Shown one piece after another: positions 446-19,920 of a stretch of DNA of 22,687 bases (position 1 is the first letter of the stretch; the number at the start of each line of letters is the position of its first letter). Source of the stretch: a virus. The notes beneath the pieces were generated by a model that saw only the letters and a program-made list of their open reading frames with translations, ran no database searches and was not told the origin of the DNA. The stretch spans positions 1 to 22,687 of the IMG/VR virus record IMGVR_UViG_3300007623_000036; one strand, written 5' to 3'. A program made the translations under genes and the position numbers.

Positions 446-470
446 AAAGGGACCGCAAGGTCCCTTTTTT
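446..470. terminator. Bidirectional intrinsic terminator between convergent operons
   Basis: A 9-bp perfect stem (AAAGGGACC 446-454 with GGTCCCTTT 459-467) encloses a GCAA tetraloop, of the stable GNRA class when read rightward. The rightward transcript continues in a U run (465-470). Read leftward, the stem is followed by TTTCTATT, a weaker U tract. The leftward tape-measure gene ends at 469-471, inside the U run, so one hairpin serves both operons. Confidence 0.85.
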
Positions 471-2502
471 AAACGTTGTATGCGTTAGTTAGTCCAGCTA
501 AACCAAAGGGATTAACTGAAGAACTACCACCCCCGCCAGATGATAATTGAACCATACTAATATTATCACCAGCATCCATATTACTATAAGTAACTGGTGC
601 ATTTGTAGATGCATCGATATAAACATTTCCACCTGTTCTACCCATAATGTAACTGTCCATCATTTCTAAACTAGATGACCTAGCAGCAGATCTTCCATTT
701 CTGTAACCCATTTCTAAGTAACCGTTTCCTCTGCCGCCATATTGTAGTGATGCACCGGCATCTCTAAGTGGAGGAAGTACTTCTTGCGATTGACGTGCAG
801 CATTTTCAGCAGCTATTGCAGCCCTTGATTGTGCTGCTGCGTTATATCCTTGAATACCCATGCCTTGCTGCAAATCACCATAATGCAAAGGTTTAACTCT
901 TCCTGATGCGTCGTGTGATACTACTGGTTGGCTCATAGCAGCATCTTCATCAACAAATCTTTTAACATAATCTCTTTCAATTTGCTTGGCATCAGCATCA
1001 TCTTTTGCTGTTGGGTTTTCATCAAATGCCCATCTTACAATCCATTCACCAAGATAACCACCTGCGAACAAACCAACTAAACCACCGGTAAGGCCACCGA
1101 TAAGAGCACCCCAAGGTCCACCCATTGCACCCGCAATAGCTCCTATTGTAGCACCTCCAGCACCACCGATTACTTCACCCATCAATCCGCCTAACTCGAT
1201 TTGTTTGTTTTTCGGTGACATTGAATCATTTGTTAGAACATCATAGATTTGATATGCTGTAAGAAGAAGAGCAGCCACACCAGCTACCTTTAAAACCTTT
1301 ACTAAATTTTTAAATACTTTGGAATATTTCGGGTCTAACGTTTTTTCCATATATTTTAGTGCGTCTTCATCACTTGCGAACTTCCCGTCAGGCCCTTGAA
1401 GCTTACCAGATTTAGTAAGTCTATAACCTGATCCAGTTTTTGCAGCTATATCTGCCCTAAGCTGCGCTCGTGCTTCCGGTGTATTCATTCCAGTACTAGT
1501 TCTACCGCTGTAAGTACTATTACTCTTAGGCGCAGCATTTTTAACAGATTTGTTATATTTTGCTCTTTCACCAGGTTTTTCGTATGTATCACCTCTGCCC
1601 TTTCTACCTTCTGGTTCTGCGCCTGTTGGATTAGATTTGTTATATTTTGCTCTTTCACCAGGTTTTTCGTATGTATCACCTCTGCCCTTTCTACCTTCTG
1701 GGTCGACGTTTTTTGGTGGTTTGTTGGGGTCAGGCGGTGGTTTAGGTTTAGAATTTTTCATGTTTCTTTCAACTATCTCACCCCACTTATACATAGCCTT
1801 AGACGCCCATCTTAAAGCTGTAAACCCGCTTATTAAGCCTATAGCCAATTTGGCCAAATTAAGCTGATCACGAAGTTTAGCAATTTCGTCAATCATATCT
1901 TTCATGTTTTTGTTTAAATCATCGACAGATTTCTTAAATCCGTCAACAGATTTCTTTAGTTCAGCGCCATATTGTTTCATTTCGGCAAACGCTTCGCGGG
2001 CTTTTTCTTCTACTTCAATCTTTTTGGCTTCTAGTTTTTCTAATCCTGATTCGCCATCACCTGCGAACGCTGTATTGATAAAACCTTTACCAAGATTATA
2101 ACCGAGGAATCCTGCAGCACCTACACCAGCAATTGTTTTAAGCGCACTACCTAAACCACTAAGACTAAAAGCTTTCTTAAGACTAGAGTCTATACTTTCT
2201 CCAATCTTATCACCAACTTTATCTATATTACTATCGGAATCTTTTTCTTTTTGCTTTGATTCTATTTCGTCTAACTGTTCTTTGGTACGAGCTGCTTCAA
2301 GTGCTTCAGTTGCTATACCTGCTTGCATTTGAAGAATTTTTGTTTGTTCAGCAATATTATTTGAAATGCTATTAAAAACACCTTCAAACTTCTGTAAAGT
2401 GATGTTTACAGATTTAATAGAGTTAGTACCGGTATTGCGAATCAAATCGCCTTCGGCTTTTAACCTATCTACAATTGCTTGTGTTTCTAATGAGAGTGCC
2501 AT
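469..2502 (-). CDS. 29: Tail tape measure / baseplate hub protein (gp29-like)
   Basis: This 677-residue protein lies directly downstream of the gp26/gp51-like chaperone pair, where a tape measure belongs. It probably runs inside the tail tube, sets its length and travels with the DNA on ejection. It has a helical charged N-terminal half with a coiled coil around residues 154-222. A Pro/Lys-rich disordered linker (250-335) follows, with two near-identical 23-residue repeats. A hydrophobic helix lies at 405-422. A Gly/Ala-rich membrane-like block occupies about 438-487 (runs such as GGAGGATIGAIAGAMGG), and the tail end is Gly/Ser-rich. T4 gp29 is 590 residues, so this is somewhat longer. The start ATG at 2502-2500 follows AGGAATAGG, eight bases after the gp51-like stop. 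Identification rests on position, size and architecture more than on sequence motifs. Confidence 0.72.
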   Translation of the reverse strand: MALSLETQAIVDRLKAEGDLIRNTGTNSIKSVNITLQKFEGVFNSISNNIAEQTKILQMQAGIATEALEAARTKEQLDEIESKQKEKDSDSNIDKVGDKIGESIDSSLKKAFSLSGLGSALKTIAGVGAAGFLGYNLGKGFINTAFAGDGESGLEKLEAKKIEVEEKAREAFAEMKQYGAELKKSVDGFKKSVDDLNKNMKDMIDEIAKLRDQLNLAKLAIGLISGFTALRWASKAMYKWGEIVERNMKNSKPKPPPDPNKPPKNVDPEGRKGRGDTYEKPGERAKYNKSNPTGAEPEGRKGRGDTYEKPGERAKYNKSVKNAAPKSNSTYSGRTSTGMNTPEARAQLRADIAAKTGSGYRLTKSGKLQGPDGKFASDEDALKYMEKTLDPKYSKVFKNLVKVLKVAGVAALLLTAYQIYDVLTNDSMSPKNKQIELGGLMGEVIGGAGGATIGAIAGAMGGPWGALIGGLTGGLVGLFAGGYLGEWIVRWAFDENPTAKDDADAKQIERDYVKRFVDEDAAMSQPVVSHDASGRVKPLHYGDLQQGMGIQGYNAAAQSRAAIAAENAARQSQEVLPPLRDAGASLQYGGRGNGYLEMGYRNGRSAARSSSLEMMDSYIMGRTGGNVYIDASTNAPVTYSNMDAGDNISMVQLSSGGGGSSSVNPFGLAGLTNAYNV
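1546..1701. repeat. Perfect 69-bp tandem direct repeat in the tape measure gene
   Basis: Bases 1546-1614 and 1633-1701 are identical over 69 bases, with an 87-bp period (18-bp spacer). The period is a multiple of three, so the unit adds 29 residues in frame. In the protein the copies read EGRKGRGDTYEKPGERAKYN at residues about 269-288 and 298-317. The lack of even synonymous differences points to a recent duplication or gene-conversion event. Confidence 0.97.
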
Positions 2503-2510
2503 TTATTTAC

Positions 2511-2672
2511 CTATTCCTGATTCTGTTTTGCTATGTAGTCAAGTAGCATACCAAAGTAAAGGTCTCTTTCATAAGGCATCATATTTTCTATGTCGCTTAT
2601 GTTATATTTATGATGCTGAGCCATGGAAAATACCATTTTGTAATAATCCTTGAGTGTTATATGACTCAGCAT
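2511..2672 (-). CDS. 51: Baseplate hub assembly / tape measure chaperone (gp51-like), 53 residues
   Basis: Reading leftward from ATG 2672-2670, a 53-codon frame ends at TAG 2513-2511. Its start overlaps the gp26 stop as TAATG. The product begins MLSHITLKDYYKMVF and contains DIENMMPYERDLYFGMLLDY. That Ile-Glu-x-Met-x-Pro-(Tyr/Phe)-Glu-Arg-x-(Leu/Ile)-Tyr signature is the kind seen in the short partner of phage tail chaperone pairs. In T4, gene 51 follows gene 26 and is needed for hub assembly with gp29. Here the order 26-51-29 is the same with 27 and 28 absent. It fills the only gap between gp26 and the tape measure. It may be made alone by re-initiation or fused to gp26 by a -1 frameshift. 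T4 gp51 is much longer, so this is a minimal version. Confidence 0.8.
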   Translation of the reverse strand: MLSHITLKDYYKMVFSMAQHHKYNISDIENMMPYERDLYFGMLLDYIAKQNQE

Positions 2673-2697
2673 TAAAGAAAAAAAGTATTAAGACCTT
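2651..2697 (-). promoter_or_regulatory. Candidate programmed -1 ribosomal frameshift signal at the gp26/gp51 junction
   Basis: Reading leftward, gp26 ends ACT TTT TTT CTT TAA, so the heptamer T TTT TTT (2684-2678) is in the correct X XXY YYZ phase. A Shine-Dalgarno-like AAGG lies at 2697-2694, nine bases before the heptamer. Nine bases after it is a short stem, TGAGT (2668-2664) with ACTCA (2655-2651), with an 8-base loop. A -1 slip reads TCT TTA ATG and continues in the gp51-like frame. The three parts match the layout of bacterial frameshift sites, though the stem is short. Confidence 0.65.
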
Positions 2698-3373
2698 GTA
2701 CTACGAATACTCCTTCCTTACCATTTTTATTAGTGTATTTAATTTCATGCCTCAATTTTGGCATGGTAGCAAAGAATTGCTCGATCCCTTTTATGACATT
2801 AGAAGAGACGCCTTCCATAAATTCATCAACTTCCGTTTGTGTATAGTTTTTAAATTCAAAAACTTCATCTTCTGACGCAACCTTATCCAAACATGCGACC
2901 AAAATGATGTAATTTAATAGAGGATCGTCTGGATCCATCTCTGAAATTTTAATGTATTCATCTATCGTTGGATATTTTAGAAACAAAGTATATTCATCAC
3001 TAATCTTTACTTCTTTCTCGTGTCCTTCTGCAGTTTCAACCTTTAGTTCTTCAATATCAAACTCTAATTCAATTTGTTCGTCGGTTTCTGGGTCTCTGAT
3101 TGCAAATTGAATAGCGTTATCTACAGATTTAGATCTAATTGCCAAGATGACATATTCCAAATCAAACATTGCCAACTGCGAAACATCCATATCAATCAAA
3201 CAATTATTTACTACTTGCTTAATTGCTATAATTCCTTGCGCTGAATCATCTGATTCTTGCGCTACCAATAAAATCTTTTCTTCTTTAACCGTAAATGCAC
3301 GGTACTTAAACTTCTGACCAGACGATGGTAAGACACCTTCAAAAATCGGCAAGTCAATCTTGGGTAAAGCCAT
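2672..3373 (-). CDS. 26: Baseplate hub subunit / tape measure chaperone (gp26-like)
   Basis: This 233-residue protein matches the T4 gp26 family (T4 gp26 is 208 residues). It opens LPKIDLPIFEGVLPSSGQKF, followed by the 'YRAFTVKEEKILLVAQES' region and a family-typical 'YPTIDEYIKISEMDPDD' stretch near residues 135-150. The fold is mixed alpha/beta and acidic with no membrane segment, so it acts in the cytoplasm during assembly. In T4 it is needed for hub formation around gp29, and its gene position beside 51 and the tape measure is that of a tail assembly chaperone. The ribosome site GAGGAGA lies about 9 bases before ATG 3373-3371. The gene ends in a T7 run and TAATG, where a -1 slip would fuse it to the gp51-like frame. 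Confidence 0.9.
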   Translation of the reverse strand: MALPKIDLPIFEGVLPSSGQKFKYRAFTVKEEKILLVAQESDDSAQGIIAIKQVVNNCLIDMDVSQLAMFDLEYVILAIRSKSVDNAIQFAIRDPETDEQIELEFDIEELKVETAEGHEKEVKISDEYTLFLKYPTIDEYIKISEMDPDDPLLNYIILVACLDKVASEDEVFEFKNYTQTEVDEFMEGVSSNVIKGIEQFFATMPKLRHEIKYTNKNGKEGVFVVQGLNTFFL

Positions 3374-3391: not shown

Positions 3392-4150
3392 TTAAAATAA
3401 GCTTTTTATCTTGTCAAACTTGTTAGTTACTTTAGTATACTTATTAACTGCATCTTGGATAGAATCTGGTACAAGGTTTTGGCCAATAAGTTGCCCAAAA
3501 GCCCCTACTTGATTGATTAAACCTAATAGGCCATTTCCACGTCCAAACCTTGCTGTTGGTGAACCAATTTTTTCACCAGTATACTCTATGCGATCATATT
3601 GGAAGCTCACAGGTAATACTGAGAATGAATCGTTATTTTCCCAAGCCAAATCTACATCTCCTATCATAATAGGAAACGCATTTTCTATTTTAACTTCGTA
3701 ATACTGGCCAGTCTTTTCATAGTTTGTTGAATACTGTCTAATAACAACAGTTGCGCCATAATCGTCTTTATAGTTTACTTCGTATGGTAATCTTCCACCA
3801 ACTTCAGCAAATGGACCTGCTGCAGTTGAATAGTTAACAACTTGCTGCATCCATCCATGAAAGAATGACATGACCTGATGATCAGAATCAAGCATAAAGA
3901 TTGTTTGAACTGGTTCTATATTAATAGTCATCGGCATCATTTTACGAAATTGTCCGACGTGCTGACTTTCAACTGCACCAAATGACATTCCAGGAATAGC
4001 AGCATTTTTGCAAAAGAATACTAAATCCCTAGAATTGGCTCTTGATTTAACGCCTGGAAAGTTCATTATTTGTACTTCAAACAATGAACCACGCGCAGGA
4101 CCGCCAAACCAATCCATTTGTGATTTAAACTCTGATATTCTGAATGCCAT
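3392..4150 (-). CDS. 54: Baseplate-tail tube initiator (gp54-like, tail tube fold)
   Basis: This 252-residue protein looks like a member of the gp19/gp48/gp54 tube fold group. It opens AFRISEFKSQMDWFGGPARG and 'SLFEVQIMNFPG'. A core around residues 70-190 contains 'MPMTINIEPVQTIFMLDSDH' (the beta-hairpin region), 'YEVKIENAFPIMIGDVDLAW' and 'NDSFSVLPVSFQYDRI', with a Gly-rich then helical C-terminus. In T4, gp54 (320 residues) joins the hub through gp48 and starts polymerisation of the gp19 tube. gp48 is recognised separately in this window and the sequence is too long for gp19, which leaves gp54 as the best fit. The ATG overlaps the preceding stop by one base (TAATG), and gp26 follows 18 bases on. 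Confidence 0.65.
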   Translation of the reverse strand: MAFRISEFKSQMDWFGGPARGSLFEVQIMNFPGVKSRANSRDLVFFCKNAAIPGMSFGAVESQHVGQFRKMMPMTINIEPVQTIFMLDSDHQVMSFFHGWMQQVVNYSTAAGPFAEVGGRLPYEVNYKDDYGATVVIRQYSTNYEKTGQYYEVKIENAFPIMIGDVDLAWENNDSFSVLPVSFQYDRIEYTGEKIGSPTARFGRGNGLLGLINQVGAFGQLIGQNLVPDSIQDAVNKYTKVTNKFDKIKSLF

Positions 4151-8449: not shown

Positions 8450-10451
8450 TCCTGGTGTAGGTGTATCTAATCCTTTATTTTTCGTAGGTGTAGTAGAAAA
8501 TAATGTTGATCCACGCAGAGAAGGACGTGTTCAAGTAAGAGCATTTGGCGTACACGGTTTCTCTAATGGTGTTAATGGTGGTGGTTTAGAAACAGACGAA
8601 TTACCTTGGGCTATCGTTGTTAAGGGTGATTACGATCCTAATGGCTCTCCAGGATTAGGCTTACCAGCTATTAACTCTTGGGTGTTTGGAATGTTCCTAG
8701 ATGGACGCGACGCGCAACAACCAATGATACTTGGATTAATACCCACTCAAAACGTAGAAGCTATCGACCCGTTTAAAAATGGCTGGGGTTATATTCCTAA
8801 TACTTCGGATGCAGAATTGATAGCCCGTGGTTCTGATCCAGATAATTTTGGCGAAGTTCAGCAATCTCGATTAGCTCGTGGAGAACGACTTACAGAAACA
8901 CACGTTCATAAACATCAGGCAACAAGAACGACTGGTATTAAAATAGGTGGTAAAGATAAAACGTGGAGTGAGCCTCCTTCTGCTTATAAAGCTCAATATC
9001 CTCACAACCGAGTAATTGAATCTGGTGCTCACACTATCGAACTTGATGATACACCTGGTGCTGAACGTATTACTATTTTCCATCGTGCAGGTGCGTATGT
9101 ACAAATAGACCATAGAGGAACGACTACACATAAAGCTACTGGTGATAAGTACGAAGTAAATGATAGAAATCATCATGTAGTTGTAGGCGGGATGAGTACT
9201 GTAACTGTTAATGGTAATAGTTATGTGTACGTTAAAGGTAACAAGATTGAAGAAATAGAAGGCGATCTAACAACGATGGTTCATGGCAATCATCACTTAA
9301 ACGTCGGCGGTGAAATAACTCACCAATCTGGTGATAGATTACAAATAAGAGCTGGCGCAGATGTAAGAATGACTTCTTTAAAAGCTACTTCAATTAACGT
9401 AGGAACAGAATTACAGGTACAATCAGGCCAGAGTGCTTACTTTAAAACGCCTAAAGCATGGTTTCAAGCAACGGACTCGTTAAGTATAAAAGCAAATACT
9501 ACGTTGTTTGAATCTGTTGAAAGTTTAGATATCTTTAGTGATAAGATTAATATGCAAGGTACATCTGATTTTAATATCAGAGGTGACGCGGTATTAAGAG
9601 TTGGTTCAGATGGTAATATACATGTTAATGCAACTGAAGTCTTTATAGATGATTATGTAACCATGGCCAATGGTGGTGCTGAAGGTGCAGGAAGTGCATT
9701 ATCTGCTGAAGATGCTATTGATGCAGTAAAAGTTGAAGCACCGGAACCGACTGCTAAATCTACTTCTATTGTTGCAAACGATCCGCCTTCATTAGCATCA
9801 TCTGGTCCAGTATATGAAGTTCAAGATCCAAATGCAGAAAGTAGCGTTACCGCTACGATACCTGGCAATGTAACAGCTGTTGTAGAATCAGCAGCCTCAC
9901 CTTTATTAGACTTCATTGGTAATAAAGAAAGTAATGGATATGACGATATCTGGGGTGGCATTAGAAACCCAAGACACCGGCCATCTAAGCCACTTACTTC
10001 TATGACAATACAAGAAGTTCTTGATTGGCAAGAAAGTATTGATGCAATATACAACTCAGAAGCAGCTGGCCGTTACCAAATTATGGAAGATACTTTGCGC
10101 GGATATAATAATGATAAAGGTGGTAAAACTGGCAAGTCATTGTATGAACGTGCTGGCTTGTCAGCAGGCGATCTGTTTAGTCCAATAAACCAAGACAAGA
10201 TGGCTGTTGTATTATTAGAAGGAAGAGGATTAACATCATTCCTAGATGGTAAAATAACAAGAGAACAGTTTGCTAATAACTTGGCATCAGAATGGGCTTC
10301 GTTGCCATTAGTAACTGGACCAGGCGCGGGACAAAGCAAATACGCCGGAGATGGATTAAATAGATCTTTAACATCAATTCAAGAATTCTTGTCGGTTATA
10401 GATCAAGTTAAAGCAAAAGAGCAGGCAATTATTAGTGGAGGTGCTGGATAA
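8442..10451 (+). CDS. 5: Baseplate hub spike with C-terminal lytic transglycosylase domain (gp5-like)
   Basis: I start this gene at ATG 8442 (669 residues). It overlaps the gp27 stop, and the product (SNPGVGVSNPLFFVGVVENN) then opens straight into the OB-fold. An in-frame ATG at 8424 lies deeper in gp27. Domains in order are: an OB-fold at about 10-110; a connecting region; a triple beta-helix at about 190-410 with VgrG/gp5C-like short repeats ('HHVVVGGMSTVTVNGNSYVY'); an Ala/Ser/Pro linker at about 415-485; and a cell-wall hydrolase domain at about 488-655. The hydrolase reads FIGNKESNGYDDIWGG, 'SEAAGRYQIMEDTLRGY', 'FSPINQDKMAVVLLEGRG' and 'NNLASEWASLP', and resembles lambda R (GH104), with Glu496 as the likely catalytic acid. 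In T4 the lysozyme (a different family) sits between the OB-fold and the helix, so this layout is rearranged. It would pierce the outer membrane and cut peptidoglycan. Confidence 0.92.
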   Translation: MSNPGVGVSNPLFFVGVVENNVDPRREGRVQVRAFGVHGFSNGVNGGGLETDELPWAIVVKGDYDPNGSPGLGLPAINSWVFGMFLDGRDAQQPMILGLIPTQNVEAIDPFKNGWGYIPNTSDAELIARGSDPDNFGEVQQSRLARGERLTETHVHKHQATRTTGIKIGGKDKTWSEPPSAYKAQYPHNRVIESGAHTIELDDTPGAERITIFHRAGAYVQIDHRGTTTHKATGDKYEVNDRNHHVVVGGMSTVTVNGNSYVYVKGNKIEEIEGDLTTMVHGNHHLNVGGEITHQSGDRLQIRAGADVRMTSLKATSINVGTELQVQSGQSAYFKTPKAWFQATDSLSIKANTTLFESVESLDIFSDKINMQGTSDFNIRGDAVLRVGSDGNIHVNATEVFIDDYVTMANGGAEGAGSALSAEDAIDAVKVEAPEPTAKSTSIVANDPPSLASSGPVYEVQDPNAESSVTATIPGNVTAVVESAASPLLDFIGNKESNGYDDIWGGIRNPRHRPSKPLTSMTIQEVLDWQESIDAIYNSEAAGRYQIMEDTLRGYNNDKGGKTGKSLYERAGLSAGDLFSPINQDKMAVVLLEGRGLTSFLDGKITREQFANNLASEWASLPLVTGPGAGQSKYAGDGLNRSLTSIQEFLSVIDQVKAKEQAIISGGAG

Positions 10452-12445
10452 TGGCGTGCACATGTAAACCTGGAAAGCCACTTTGTAGTAGCTGTTTAAC
10501 GAGTACTTTCGAAAGAAATAAATTAAATTTAGCTGTTAATAGCACTACCGTTTATCAAAATGCCGACGGAGAATATACTCTTAATCAAGTTGATGAGTTC
10601 GAAAAGAAATTTAAAAGCAATATAGTCGTCGATGTTCAAAACAATCCTTTGTCAGGTGCTGTAAAAAGATACGGTGAAAAGGAATTTTATGATGCGGCTA
10701 ATTCTATTAATAATGATTTCTTAAAAAGAGATTATATAAAAGCAGAACTTGTTAATAATGCAGAAACTTATCCTGTACTAAATGAGCGATTAGGAAGAGG
10801 CGCGATAAGTCCATTAGAATTTGCTGCATTTATTAGAGATAGTAATTATTCGCCAGCAGCGGCAGTTGCGTCAAGTAATGCAGCCGGTTCTAGGTTCTTA
10901 GAGGAATTAGAAGAATTCTATAATGGTGATTTTTCTGCAAGCGTACTAGGTGGATTCTGTGCCATGTTTAATAGCATATTTGGTGCTATTGGTGGCTTCT
11001 TTGATTTAATTGATGGTGTTAGCGGTCTCATAGGAGATGCCTTATCATTTTTAGATAGAATCAAAAATATAGAAGATCCATTACAAGCTCTGTTTGATAA
11101 GATTAAAGTTAAAGCTTTAATTGAAGCTGTTAAAGAAAAGATCACAAGCACCATTGAAAAAACTATTAATAAAGTTAAAAAAATGGTTGAAAATTTTAAT
11201 CCTTCTGAAATTATTGGCAACATTGCAAACAATATAGAAAAAACTATTACTGAAAAAGTAAATAGCATTCAAAACCAAATTAGCAGTTTCTTTTCCCAAG
11301 AAAACGTAGATAAAATTTTAGGTAAAGTAAATGGACTTATTGATTACGCCGTAGGCCAATTTTCTAATCCATCTATTGAAGAAATATCATTTATGATTTC
11401 TAGATTCTGCGCACTTGCAACAGGTGTTGAAGGATTGATTAAAGGACTTAAAGCTCCACTTGACGATTTCTCTAACCGTTACGATGAAGTATTTAATACT
11501 TTAAGTAATGCATCCAATAGAATAACAGGTGAAGCTATTAGAGCAGGCGCCATAAGATTCTCAGATGAAAGAAGAACTTCTGAAATAAATAAACAAAAGG
11601 AAGTTTGGGGTAATGTTAAAAGAGGTAATTCACCCGTAAATCCAGCTGCGCAGGCTACATCGGAAGGACAGGTTGTTCCAGTTGGAGTAACTAATATACC
11701 TACTGCACAAGAAAGAGCCGCGAAGTTGTTTGAAATTGGCCCGCCGACCGCGAAAGAATTAGGAAGTATGCCTACGTGGGAAGATATTAGAGAAGGAAAG
11801 GACGGAAGAATATTCTCAACAACAAGCTCAATGTTCGGTGTAAGTAAAGAAAGAGGAACTGCTGGCGCCGGTGGTCCAGATGGATGGAACAATTTAACAT
11901 TAGATACTCGAATCGCAATACTTAGATTACACAGCGCAATTAAAAAGCATATTAATGGAAAAATTGAAATTATCGTCGGGTGGGTTAATGGTGAAGAAGC
12001 TGAGTTTTTCAATAAACATTTTGAGTCCGGTACTGCTGTAAAATTAAAGTGGGAACCTTGGGGACACGATGAAATGTCAATATACTATGCCGAGGAATAT
12101 GGTAGGATAATGGGTTGGCGTGGTATTGTTTTCAGTGATGCTTCAGCAATGTTTGATATGGGTGGTAAAGAAAGATATAGAAATAATATGTCTAAGAATC
12201 TTCCGCCTCTTACGGTACCAGATAAAGGTCAAGATCTTTGGAAAAGAACAAGTGACCGTAATAAGGATAAAATTAATAGAAATTCAGCCCGTGCTATTGT
12301 CATGGAAACAAAAGGTGAGCTCATATTTGAAGAAAATGGGCACAAGTATAAGGCTGTTTATAGACCACCGACCCAAAGTAATTACACTTCCGGCGGTGTA
12401 GAAACAGAATTCAAAGGAACTGTGGTAATCACACTAGTTAGATAA
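10451..12445 (+). CDS. Virion structural protein with tetracysteine N-terminus and degenerate M15-like C-terminus
   Basis: This 664-residue protein lies between spike gene 5 and wedge gene 25, where marine T4-like phages often carry a virion structural protein. The N-terminus (MACTCKPGKPLCSSC) has four Cys spaced C-x-C and C-x-x-C, a likely metal site. Residues 160-330 hold amphipathic and hydrophobic helices ('GGFCAMFNSIFGAIGGFFDL', then long Lys/Ile-rich heptads), possibly a coiled coil or membrane-active part. Residues about 470-580 ('LDTRIAILRLHSAIKKHING', 'IEIIVGWVNGEEAEFFNKHF', 'ESGTAVKLKW', 'MGWRGIVFSD') recall a peptidase M15-type D-Ala-D-Ala carboxypeptidase. The metal ligands look lost: Lys531 is where Asp is expected, and Met567-Phe568-Asp569 is where His-x-Asp is. 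Function is unknown, and the family suggestion is my inference. The ATG overlaps the gp5 stop. Confidence 0.85.
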   Translation: MACTCKPGKPLCSSCLTSTFERNKLNLAVNSTTVYQNADGEYTLNQVDEFEKKFKSNIVVDVQNNPLSGAVKRYGEKEFYDAANSINNDFLKRDYIKAELVNNAETYPVLNERLGRGAISPLEFAAFIRDSNYSPAAAVASSNAAGSRFLEELEEFYNGDFSASVLGGFCAMFNSIFGAIGGFFDLIDGVSGLIGDALSFLDRIKNIEDPLQALFDKIKVKALIEAVKEKITSTIEKTINKVKKMVENFNPSEIIGNIANNIEKTITEKVNSIQNQISSFFSQENVDKILGKVNGLIDYAVGQFSNPSIEEISFMISRFCALATGVEGLIKGLKAPLDDFSNRYDEVFNTLSNASNRITGEAIRAGAIRFSDERRTSEINKQKEVWGNVKRGNSPVNPAAQATSEGQVVPVGVTNIPTAQERAAKLFEIGPPTAKELGSMPTWEDIREGKDGRIFSTTSSMFGVSKERGTAGAGGPDGWNNLTLDTRIAILRLHSAIKKHINGKIEIIVGWVNGEEAEFFNKHFESGTAVKLKWEPWGHDEMSIYYAEEYGRIMGWRGIVFSDASAMFDMGGKERYRNNMSKNLPPLTVPDKGQDLWKRTSDRNKDKINRNSARAIVMETKGELIFEENGHKYKAVYRPPTQSNYTSGGVETEFKGTVVITLVR

Positions 12446-18258: not shown

Positions 18259-19920
18259 ATGCTTAGAGAGTGGATCGTAACTCTGCATAACAGAGAAGAC
18301 CTGGAAGGTTTCTATGAAGACATGGAAACACCAGGCGGTAATCTATTCATTCCAGATAGAGCCGTTAATGTAGCAAATAAAAGACCCATTAGTAGAAATA
18401 CTCATTATATGCTAACTCATGAAGAAGCTGAGTTGGTAAGGCAAGATGATAGAGTTTGGGGTGTTGATTTAGTAGAACTTATTGATGCTACCACGCGACC
18501 ACTATATACTATTACAAATGGTGATTTTGATAAAGGATGGGGTGATTCAGCTACAGATATTAACTGGGGTTTATTAAGACATAGCGAAGCTACAAACAGA
18601 AGCAACTGGGGTGCAGGTACTGGTGGCACGTATCAAATTACAGATGACTTAACAATTACTGCATCTGGCAAAAATGTTGATGTCGTAATTGTTGATGGCC
18701 ATATTGATCCTGCACATCCAGAATTTGCTGTTAATTCTGACGGGTCTGGCGGTAGTCGTGTTCAGCAGTTTAACTGGTTTTCTTTAAATGGTCAAGTAAC
18801 CGGTGGTGCTAATGGCACATATGTTTATACTCCATATGTAGATGCCGGCAATGCAGATAGAACCGCCGATAATAACCATGGATGTCACTGTGCAGGGACC
18901 GTAGCTGGAAACTCGCAAGGATGGGCTAGAGATGCAAATATCTATAATATTAGTCCATATGGCACAAATCCGAATAGTCTTTCTAGTTCTCTTATGTGGG
19001 ATTATATCAGAGTTTGGCACAATAGTAAACCAATTAATCCAGTAACAGGTCGTCGCAATCCAACTATAACAAACAACAGTTATGGATCAGTTGTAACACC
19101 CGGTCAAAATAATTTTGGTTTAGTTACAGAAATTACTTATCGTGGAACAACTTTTTCACCTGGACGCGATTTAACCGTAGCAGAATTGAATGAACGTGGA
19201 TTCTTTTCAATGGCTGCAAATAACTATTATATTCCAAATTATTTCACATCAAGACTAGCTGATATTCAGGATGCAATTGCTGATGGAATTATTCTTGTAT
19301 TTGCGGCAGGTAACGAATATTGGAAAATAGTAAATAGCTCAGATCAAGACTTTGATAATACTTATAAAATGACTTATTTCGGAACGAATTATAATTGGTA
19401 TTCTCATAGAGGTACTGGTTCTGGTGCACTTTATGAACCGGCAATTACTGTCGGTGCTTTAGGGCAAGCACTAACAGAAGATAAAGCTGTATTTAGTAAC
19501 TGTGGTAGCCAAATAGACGTTTTTGCAGCTGGTGAAGCAATTAATAGTAGTGTTCATGAAAGATTAAACGACGTTGCGGATCCAAGACTAACAGGTTATA
19601 ACTTTGATAAGTATCAGGGTACAAGTATGGCAGCACCACAAGTAGCTGGTGTGTTAGCATGTTTAGCAGAATCTTGGCCAAACATGACTCAGGCTGAAGC
19701 TCAACAATGGATTATAGATACTTCTGGTAAAGATCTTATGCTTGATACAGAAGCAGACGACCCAATGGATTTACAAAGTTTGCAAGGTGCACCAAATAGA
19801 ATTCTTCGTTGGATTAACCAGAGACCAGAATCTGGCAATTGTTACCCTCAAAGAAATTTTAAACCTAGACCATCATCTGGTGTTATTTATCCTAGGCCAA
19901 AAATTCGTAGGAGAGGTTAA
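18259..19920 (+). CDS. Subtilisin-family serine protease (S8) with I9-like propeptide
   Basis: This 553-residue protein has a full S8 triad: Asp146 in VDVVIVDGHIDPAHPEF, His207 in NNHGCHCAGTVAGN, and Ser456 in GTSMAAPQVAG. The oxyanion Asn352 is in ILVFAAGNEY. Residues 1-75 look like an inhibitor_I9 propeptide (EWIVTLHN at the start, 'YMLTHEEAELVRQDDRVWGV' at the end), so it would be made as a self-processing zymogen. There is no signal peptide, which fits a virion-borne enzyme rather than a secreted one. The last 50 residues are basic and proline-rich (RPKIRRRG end) and may anchor it. It starts one base after the fibre-like stop and precedes gp8. It could trim structural proteins or digest host surface protein. 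It is unrelated to the T4 prohead protease gp21 (family S78). Confidence 0.93.
   Translation: MLREWIVTLHNREDLEGFYEDMETPGGNLFIPDRAVNVANKRPISRNTHYMLTHEEAELVRQDDRVWGVDLVELIDATTRPLYTITNGDFDKGWGDSATDINWGLLRHSEATNRSNWGAGTGGTYQITDDLTITASGKNVDVVIVDGHIDPAHPEFAVNSDGSGGSRVQQFNWFSLNGQVTGGANGTYVYTPYVDAGNADRTADNNHGCHCAGTVAGNSQGWARDANIYNISPYGTNPNSLSSSLMWDYIRVWHNSKPINPVTGRRNPTITNNSYGSVVTPGQNNFGLVTEITYRGTTFSPGRDLTVAELNERGFFSMAANNYYIPNYFTSRLADIQDAIADGIILVFAAGNEYWKIVNSSDQDFDNTYKMTYFGTNYNWYSHRGTGSGALYEPAITVGALGQALTEDKAVFSNCGSQIDVFAAGEAINSSVHERLNDVADPRLTGYNFDKYQGTSMAAPQVAGVLACLAESWPNMTQAEAQQWIIDTSGKDLMLDTEADDPMDLQSLQGAPNRILRWINQRPESGNCYPQRNFKPRPSSGVIYPRPKIRRRG

Follow-up and report, generated by a model that had tools for sequence, protein, structure and literature searches.

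A slippery heptamer at the end of gene 26 in an uncultured marine T4-like phage and the probable frameshifting of its tail assembly chaperone

The end of gene 26 and the frame that overlaps it

In the tail region of an uncultured marine T4-like phage (record IMGVR_UViG_3300007623_000036, analyzed here as one stretch of 22,687 bases, hereafter “the window”), gene 26 ends in a run of thymines and its stop codon overlaps the start of a frame of only 53 codons, which raises the question of whether two separate proteins are made from this junction or, rather, a short and a long form of a single chaperone. It is very probable, judging from the sequence comparisons presented below, that programmed -1 frameshifting at the end of gene 26 gives rise to a short (TAC-N) and a long (TAC-NC) tail assembly chaperone, much as G and GT are made in phage lambda. 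Profile searches place a T4-like tail and baseplate block in the window, and the features that the argument relies upon are as follows:

3392-4150, minus strand: upstream gene, tail-tube-like protein of the gp54 type (phrog_45 tail tube, E 7e-37; PF23849, E 6e-8)
2672-3373, minus strand: gp26/TAC-N, zero-frame product, 233 aa (PF12322 T4_baseplate, E 9e-51; phrog_150 baseplate hub, E 9e-56)
2710-2719, minus strand: strong SD-like AAGGAAGGAG, 25 nt 5' of the heptamer (duplex up to -8.3 kcal/mol)
2694-2697, minus strand: weak SD-like AAGG, 9 nt 5' of the heptamer (duplex about -3.3 kcal/mol)
2678-2684, minus strand: slippery heptamer T TTT TTT, phased with gp26 (read from the sequence; T TTT TTN in 106 of 108 representatives)
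2672-2674, minus strand: zero-frame stop TAA of gp26, one codon past the heptamer (same distance in 94 of 106 loci)
2661-2672, minus strand: 5' arm of the hairpin, beginning 5 nt past the heptamer (fold z -4.3; covariation in 32 relatives; excess over synonymous shuffles)
2613-2624, minus strand: 3' arm of the hairpin (same basis as the 5' arm)
2511-2672, minus strand: TAC-C domain, the “gp51-like” frame, 53 codons from ATG, -1 relative to gp26 (phrog_634, E 5e-20; C terminus of T4 gp51 of the same family; three helices in the AF2 model)
469-2502, minus strand: next gene, 677 aa, with a coiled coil and a Gly-rich hydrophobic stretch, a candidate tape measure protein (position, length and weak PHROG tape-measure matches)

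The 3' end of gp26 reads ACT TTT TTT CTT TAA, so that the heptamer has the X XXY YYZ form, in the phase of the upstream frame, that is characteristic of programmed -1 sites, and the gp26 stop overlaps the ATG of the 53-codon frame as TAATG. The product of a -1 slip would read ...N-T-F-F-S-L-M-L-S-H... and comprise 232+2+53 = 287 aa. The phased heptamer, the TAATG and the 287-residue fusion had all been proposed in a first-pass annotation of this DNA, and each was borne out when the sequence was read and the fusion recomputed; the AAGG it had pointed to is likewise present, whereas the downstream stem it had called “small” is actually larger, at 12 bp.

Were frameshifting to operate here, most ribosomes would reach the gp26 stop and release the 233-aa TAC-N, and a minority would stall at the 12-bp hairpin 5 nt downstream, slip one base back on T TTT TTT and complete the 287-aa TAC-NC; by analogy with lambda G/GT, the tape measure protein would then be coated by the short and long chaperones, which would also deliver the tail-tube subunits. 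Slippage in cells, the slip rate and the chaperone role are what we infer for this locus. Near the gp26/TAC-C junction, neither an intrinsic terminator nor a convincing promoter was found. What counts against a frameshift-only reading is that the downstream frame of the window has an ATG of its own in the TAATG overlap, at which translation could be re-initiated, and some 53-aa product may be made separately from this ATG. The weakness of the AAGG, a homology search that yielded no tape measure partner and the relatedness of the loci counted below are further points on that side.

Conservation of the heptamer and the alternatives to a ribosomal shift

The check suggested in the first-pass annotation, namely, the conservation of the heptamer and of the -1 phase among relatives, was performed on 146 loci (the window included), thinned to 108 representatives for the heptamer counts. 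In all of the first 19 loci retrieved by protein search (19/19), gp26 ends in T TTT TTY and the -1 phase is kept. An in-frame T TTT TTN is found at the gp26 end in 106 of the 108 representatives, at identities down to about 26-30% (69 TTTTTTC, 35 TTTTTTT and 2 TTTTTTG), and the C-terminal domain, recognizable in 145 of the 146 loci, lies in the -1 frame in 144 of those 145. Both traits are kept in phages of cyanobacteria, Pelagibacter, Vibrio, Aeromonas, Rhizobium and Pseudomonas, and the isolates having them include P-SSM2, S-RSM4, Aeh1, Milchi, RL38J1 (with TTG), Ci1, nt-1, S-SM2, S-H68, S-WAM2, D483, PhiW-14, BUCT608 and Pelagibacter phage Mosig. At other Phe-Phe pairs within the gp26 genes, the heptamer is seen once in 103 cases, versus the gp26 end, for which the difference gives a Fisher p of 9e-60 with loci treated as independent; as related loci were counted in this way, this p value and the one given further below overstate the evidence, the effects being large nonetheless. 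Because the heptamer and the -1 phase are conserved in the relatives, comparison excludes a chance origin of the T TTT TTT at the gp26 end.

The sole locus with a C domain outside the -1 frame (L057) has a broken gp26 frame, which probably reflects a sequencing mistake or a copy that is no longer functional. Both representatives lacking the heptamer (L026 and L027) are of the Ackermannviridae type. Six loci from Ackermannviridae and Vibrio K475 (L026, L027, L030, L151, L152 and L153) have no T TTT TTN, their C-domain-like frame still being -1; their gp26 genes end in NTT TTY (ATT TTC, GTT TTC, GTT TTT or CTT TTT), possibly a weaker slip resembling the GTTTTT of phage Adele.

Of the other explanations, the one that fares best holds that the two frames yield separate proteins by translational coupling, the ribosome restarting at TAATG on the 53-codon frame without any shift. 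Such a restart would agree with the TAATG of the window, with the presence of an ATG within 8 codons of the slip in 56 of 107 representatives and with the many GenBank records in which the two frames are listed as separate genes. It is nevertheless improbable: the -1 phase is fixed; the heptamer and its Phe-Phe codons are kept far beyond what codon usage would account for; the bases 12 to 6 before the ATG of the window are the T-run itself, so that no SD fits there; and 37 of the 107 relatives (S-RSM4, Aeh1, Milchi, Ci1 and S-SM2 among them) have no ATG, GTG or TTG within 8 codons after the slip, which leaves a shift as practically the only way for them to produce the C domain.

In bacteria, RNA polymerase is known to slip on long A/T runs, and by adding or dropping a U in the run of seven T present in the window it could also, in principle, yield the fusion from an edited mRNA. 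The relatives make this very improbable, as 69 of the 106 representatives have a run of six T only (T TTT TTC) and two have TTG, the phase of the heptamer being kept throughout, and a codon-phased heptamer followed by a hairpin 5 nt downstream suits a ribosome rather than a polymerase. A sequencing or assembly error splitting one true gene, to which homopolymers are indeed prone, is refuted by the same run in a second contig (L001, 99.8% identical over 6373 nt) and by the same split in the same phase in isolate genomes and over 100 contigs.

Hairpins downstream and an SD-like element upstream

Frameshifting by the ribosome at programmed -1 sites usually involves a stable RNA structure about 5-9 nt downstream, and one is found in the window: a 12-bp stem (2672-2661 paired with 2624-2613) after a 5-nt spacer, at -20.1 kcal/mol, with a z of -4.3 against dinucleotide shuffles and of -3.2 against synonymous shuffles encoding the same peptide. 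Over 105 loci, the mean fold z is -2.31 in the downstream 70 nt, compared to 0.02 in the upstream control and -0.61 further downstream. Within the clade of the window (32 relatives), two base pairs of the stem covary (one changes from CG to UA, the second from AU to either UA or UG), and the stem is paired in 87% of cells versus 25-50% when slid. A different, short hairpin at equal spacing is present in 24 P-SSM2-like sequences (95% paired, with UA/AU/GC exchange at one pair). The spacing is 5-6 nt in both clades, but the window clade has a long-loop 12-bp stem, whereas the short hairpin of the P-SSM2-like cyanophages has 11 bp and pairs other bases; Aeromonas-type and other lineages apparently have further stems. 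As these stems are more stable than the same-peptide synonymous shuffles (mean z of -4.23 in the window clade, -3.67 in the P-SSM2-like clade and -1.79 in the rest), they are not by-products of the encoded peptide. An Rfam search at the slip site returned no known RNA family.

The upstream side of the heptamer carries a phased SD-like GAGGG in most lineages, with a spacing like that of the SD-like stimulators of bacterial -1 sites (about 10 nt); the duplex of this family consensus averages about -6 kcal/mol, compared to about -3.3 for the AAGG that takes its place in the window. At codon -4, when Gly follows, GAG is chosen over GAA by 53 to 20, versus 701 to 1630 elsewhere (Fisher p 2e-13, again with loci treated as independent). 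Taken together, it seems somewhat more likely than not that the RNA stimulator has been conserved yet repeatedly re-built, i.e., that this is a two-sided stimulated site whose downstream arm was replaced in evolution with the spacing and the heptamer fixed. The strong SD-like AAGGAAGGAG at 2710-2719 is too distant for a usual stimulator, nor does its position suit an SD for the 53-codon frame.

Genes 26 and 51, lambda G/GT and the tape measure

The window has both parts that define the tail assembly chaperones of T4-like phages, an N domain of the gp26 family (PF12322, E 9e-51) and a C domain that shares homology with the C terminus of T4 gp51. T4 gp26 (208 aa) and gp51 (249 aa), whose genes are on opposite strands, both match PF12322, and an HMM of the frameshift-type C domains matches T4 gp51 at 207-244 (9e-8) and JY1 gp51 (1e-9), with no match to T4 gp26. 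Since T4 gp51 matches phrog_150 over its whole length and has the phrog_634 domain at its C terminus, T4 carries the short form and the fused long form as two gene copies, without a frameshift; the profile matches mark gp26 and gp51 as paralogues and gp51 as a whole TAC-NC. Compared with the present locus, T4 thus shares PF12322 and the C-terminal domain on gp51, and differs in using two paralogous genes and no frameshift. The first-pass annotation had rightly taken genes 26 and 51 to be separate in T4, but its notion of gp51 as a small stand-alone piece does not agree with a 249-aa paralogue of gp26, and the 53-aa frame it had named “gp51” corresponds only to the C-terminal domain of a gp51-type protein, as the profile matches indicate.

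Structure prediction gave a gp26 model with a mean pLDDT of 87, for which the top-ranked PDB match, the HK97 tail assembly chaperone 2ob9, is weak (E 0.53, probability 0.66), and three helices are predicted for the C domain in its AF2 model; a sequence search of solved structures with gp26 and the C domain returned chance matches only. Lambda G/GT slips on G GGA AAG, which is different from the slip sequence seen here, and the link to the HK97 chaperone fold is, as said, weak. Frameshifting is reportedly conserved in several groups of T4-like phages, T4 itself being said to use genes 26 and 51. What is shared with lambda G/GT is a single gene from which a -1 slip, placed close to where the first frame ends, yields chaperones of two lengths (Xu, Hendrix & Duda 2004). 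In the tail assembly chaperone locus of Vandenendeviridae/Andersonviridae (phage Adele), a -1 shift likewise falls on T-rich sequence close to the TAC-N terminus, the motif there being GTTTTT, compared to T TTT TTN here (PMC12846349).

The bridge from the T4 hub genes to lambda G/GT that the first-pass annotation had put forward holds, and is not new: it was published for T4-like phages in 2022, with gp26 as TAC-N and gp51 as TAC-NC (Vladimirov, Gautam & Davidson 2022, Virology 566:9-15), and two papers citing that work state that, among T4-like phages, separate short and fused long genes stand in for a frameshift (PMC10274946) and that poly-T stretches are known -1 signals in the TAC-N genes of T4-like phages (PMC12846349). 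Going by these citing papers, the gene family and the -1 poly-T shift are the same as in the chaperones of Vladimirov et al. (2022), the phage here being an uncultured marine one, and the present locus is a further case of an already published kind of frameshifting. As late as 2010, T4 gp51 was presented as an essential protein whose function was not known (PMC3004832). Given the frameshift form in the relatives, gp26 and gp51 become the short and long forms of one chaperone and the old hub-assembly puzzle turns into a question of tape-measure chaperoning, a link that the 2022 work is reported to have made already; what is added here is a comparison over many loci and an RNA signal conserved among them, and the conserved stimulator hairpins, together with the upstream SD-like bias, may be new detail relative to that work.

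The comparison further points to many “gp51” genes being misannotated, or lacking annotation, in the public records of marine phages. In the public records of S-RSM4 (L022), Aeh1 (L023), Milchi (L024) and S-WAM2 (L036), the C domain is either entered as a short gene with a late internal start or left unannotated, and the true product in these phages is probably the fusion.

That the gene following the 53-codon frame encodes the tape measure protein, as the first-pass annotation had it, is not established: the 677-aa protein encoded after TAC-C has weak PHROG tape-measure matches, and its profile comparison with T4 gp29 gave no alignment. A 664-aa protein encoded between gp5 and gp25 (10451-12445), with a Cys-rich N terminus, scores above it with tape-measure profiles, still weakly (phrog_1272, E 6e-6; phrog_4200, E 2e-5), and is a second tape-measure candidate. 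A perfect direct repeat of 69 bases (1546-1614 and 1633-1701), coding for a repeated segment with PEGRKGRGDTYEKPGERAKYNKS, lies within the 677-aa gene. Elsewhere in the window, a subtilase (Peptidase_S8, E 4e-31) is encoded at 18259-19920, downstream of the baseplate genes and beside a wedge/fibre-connector-like gene.
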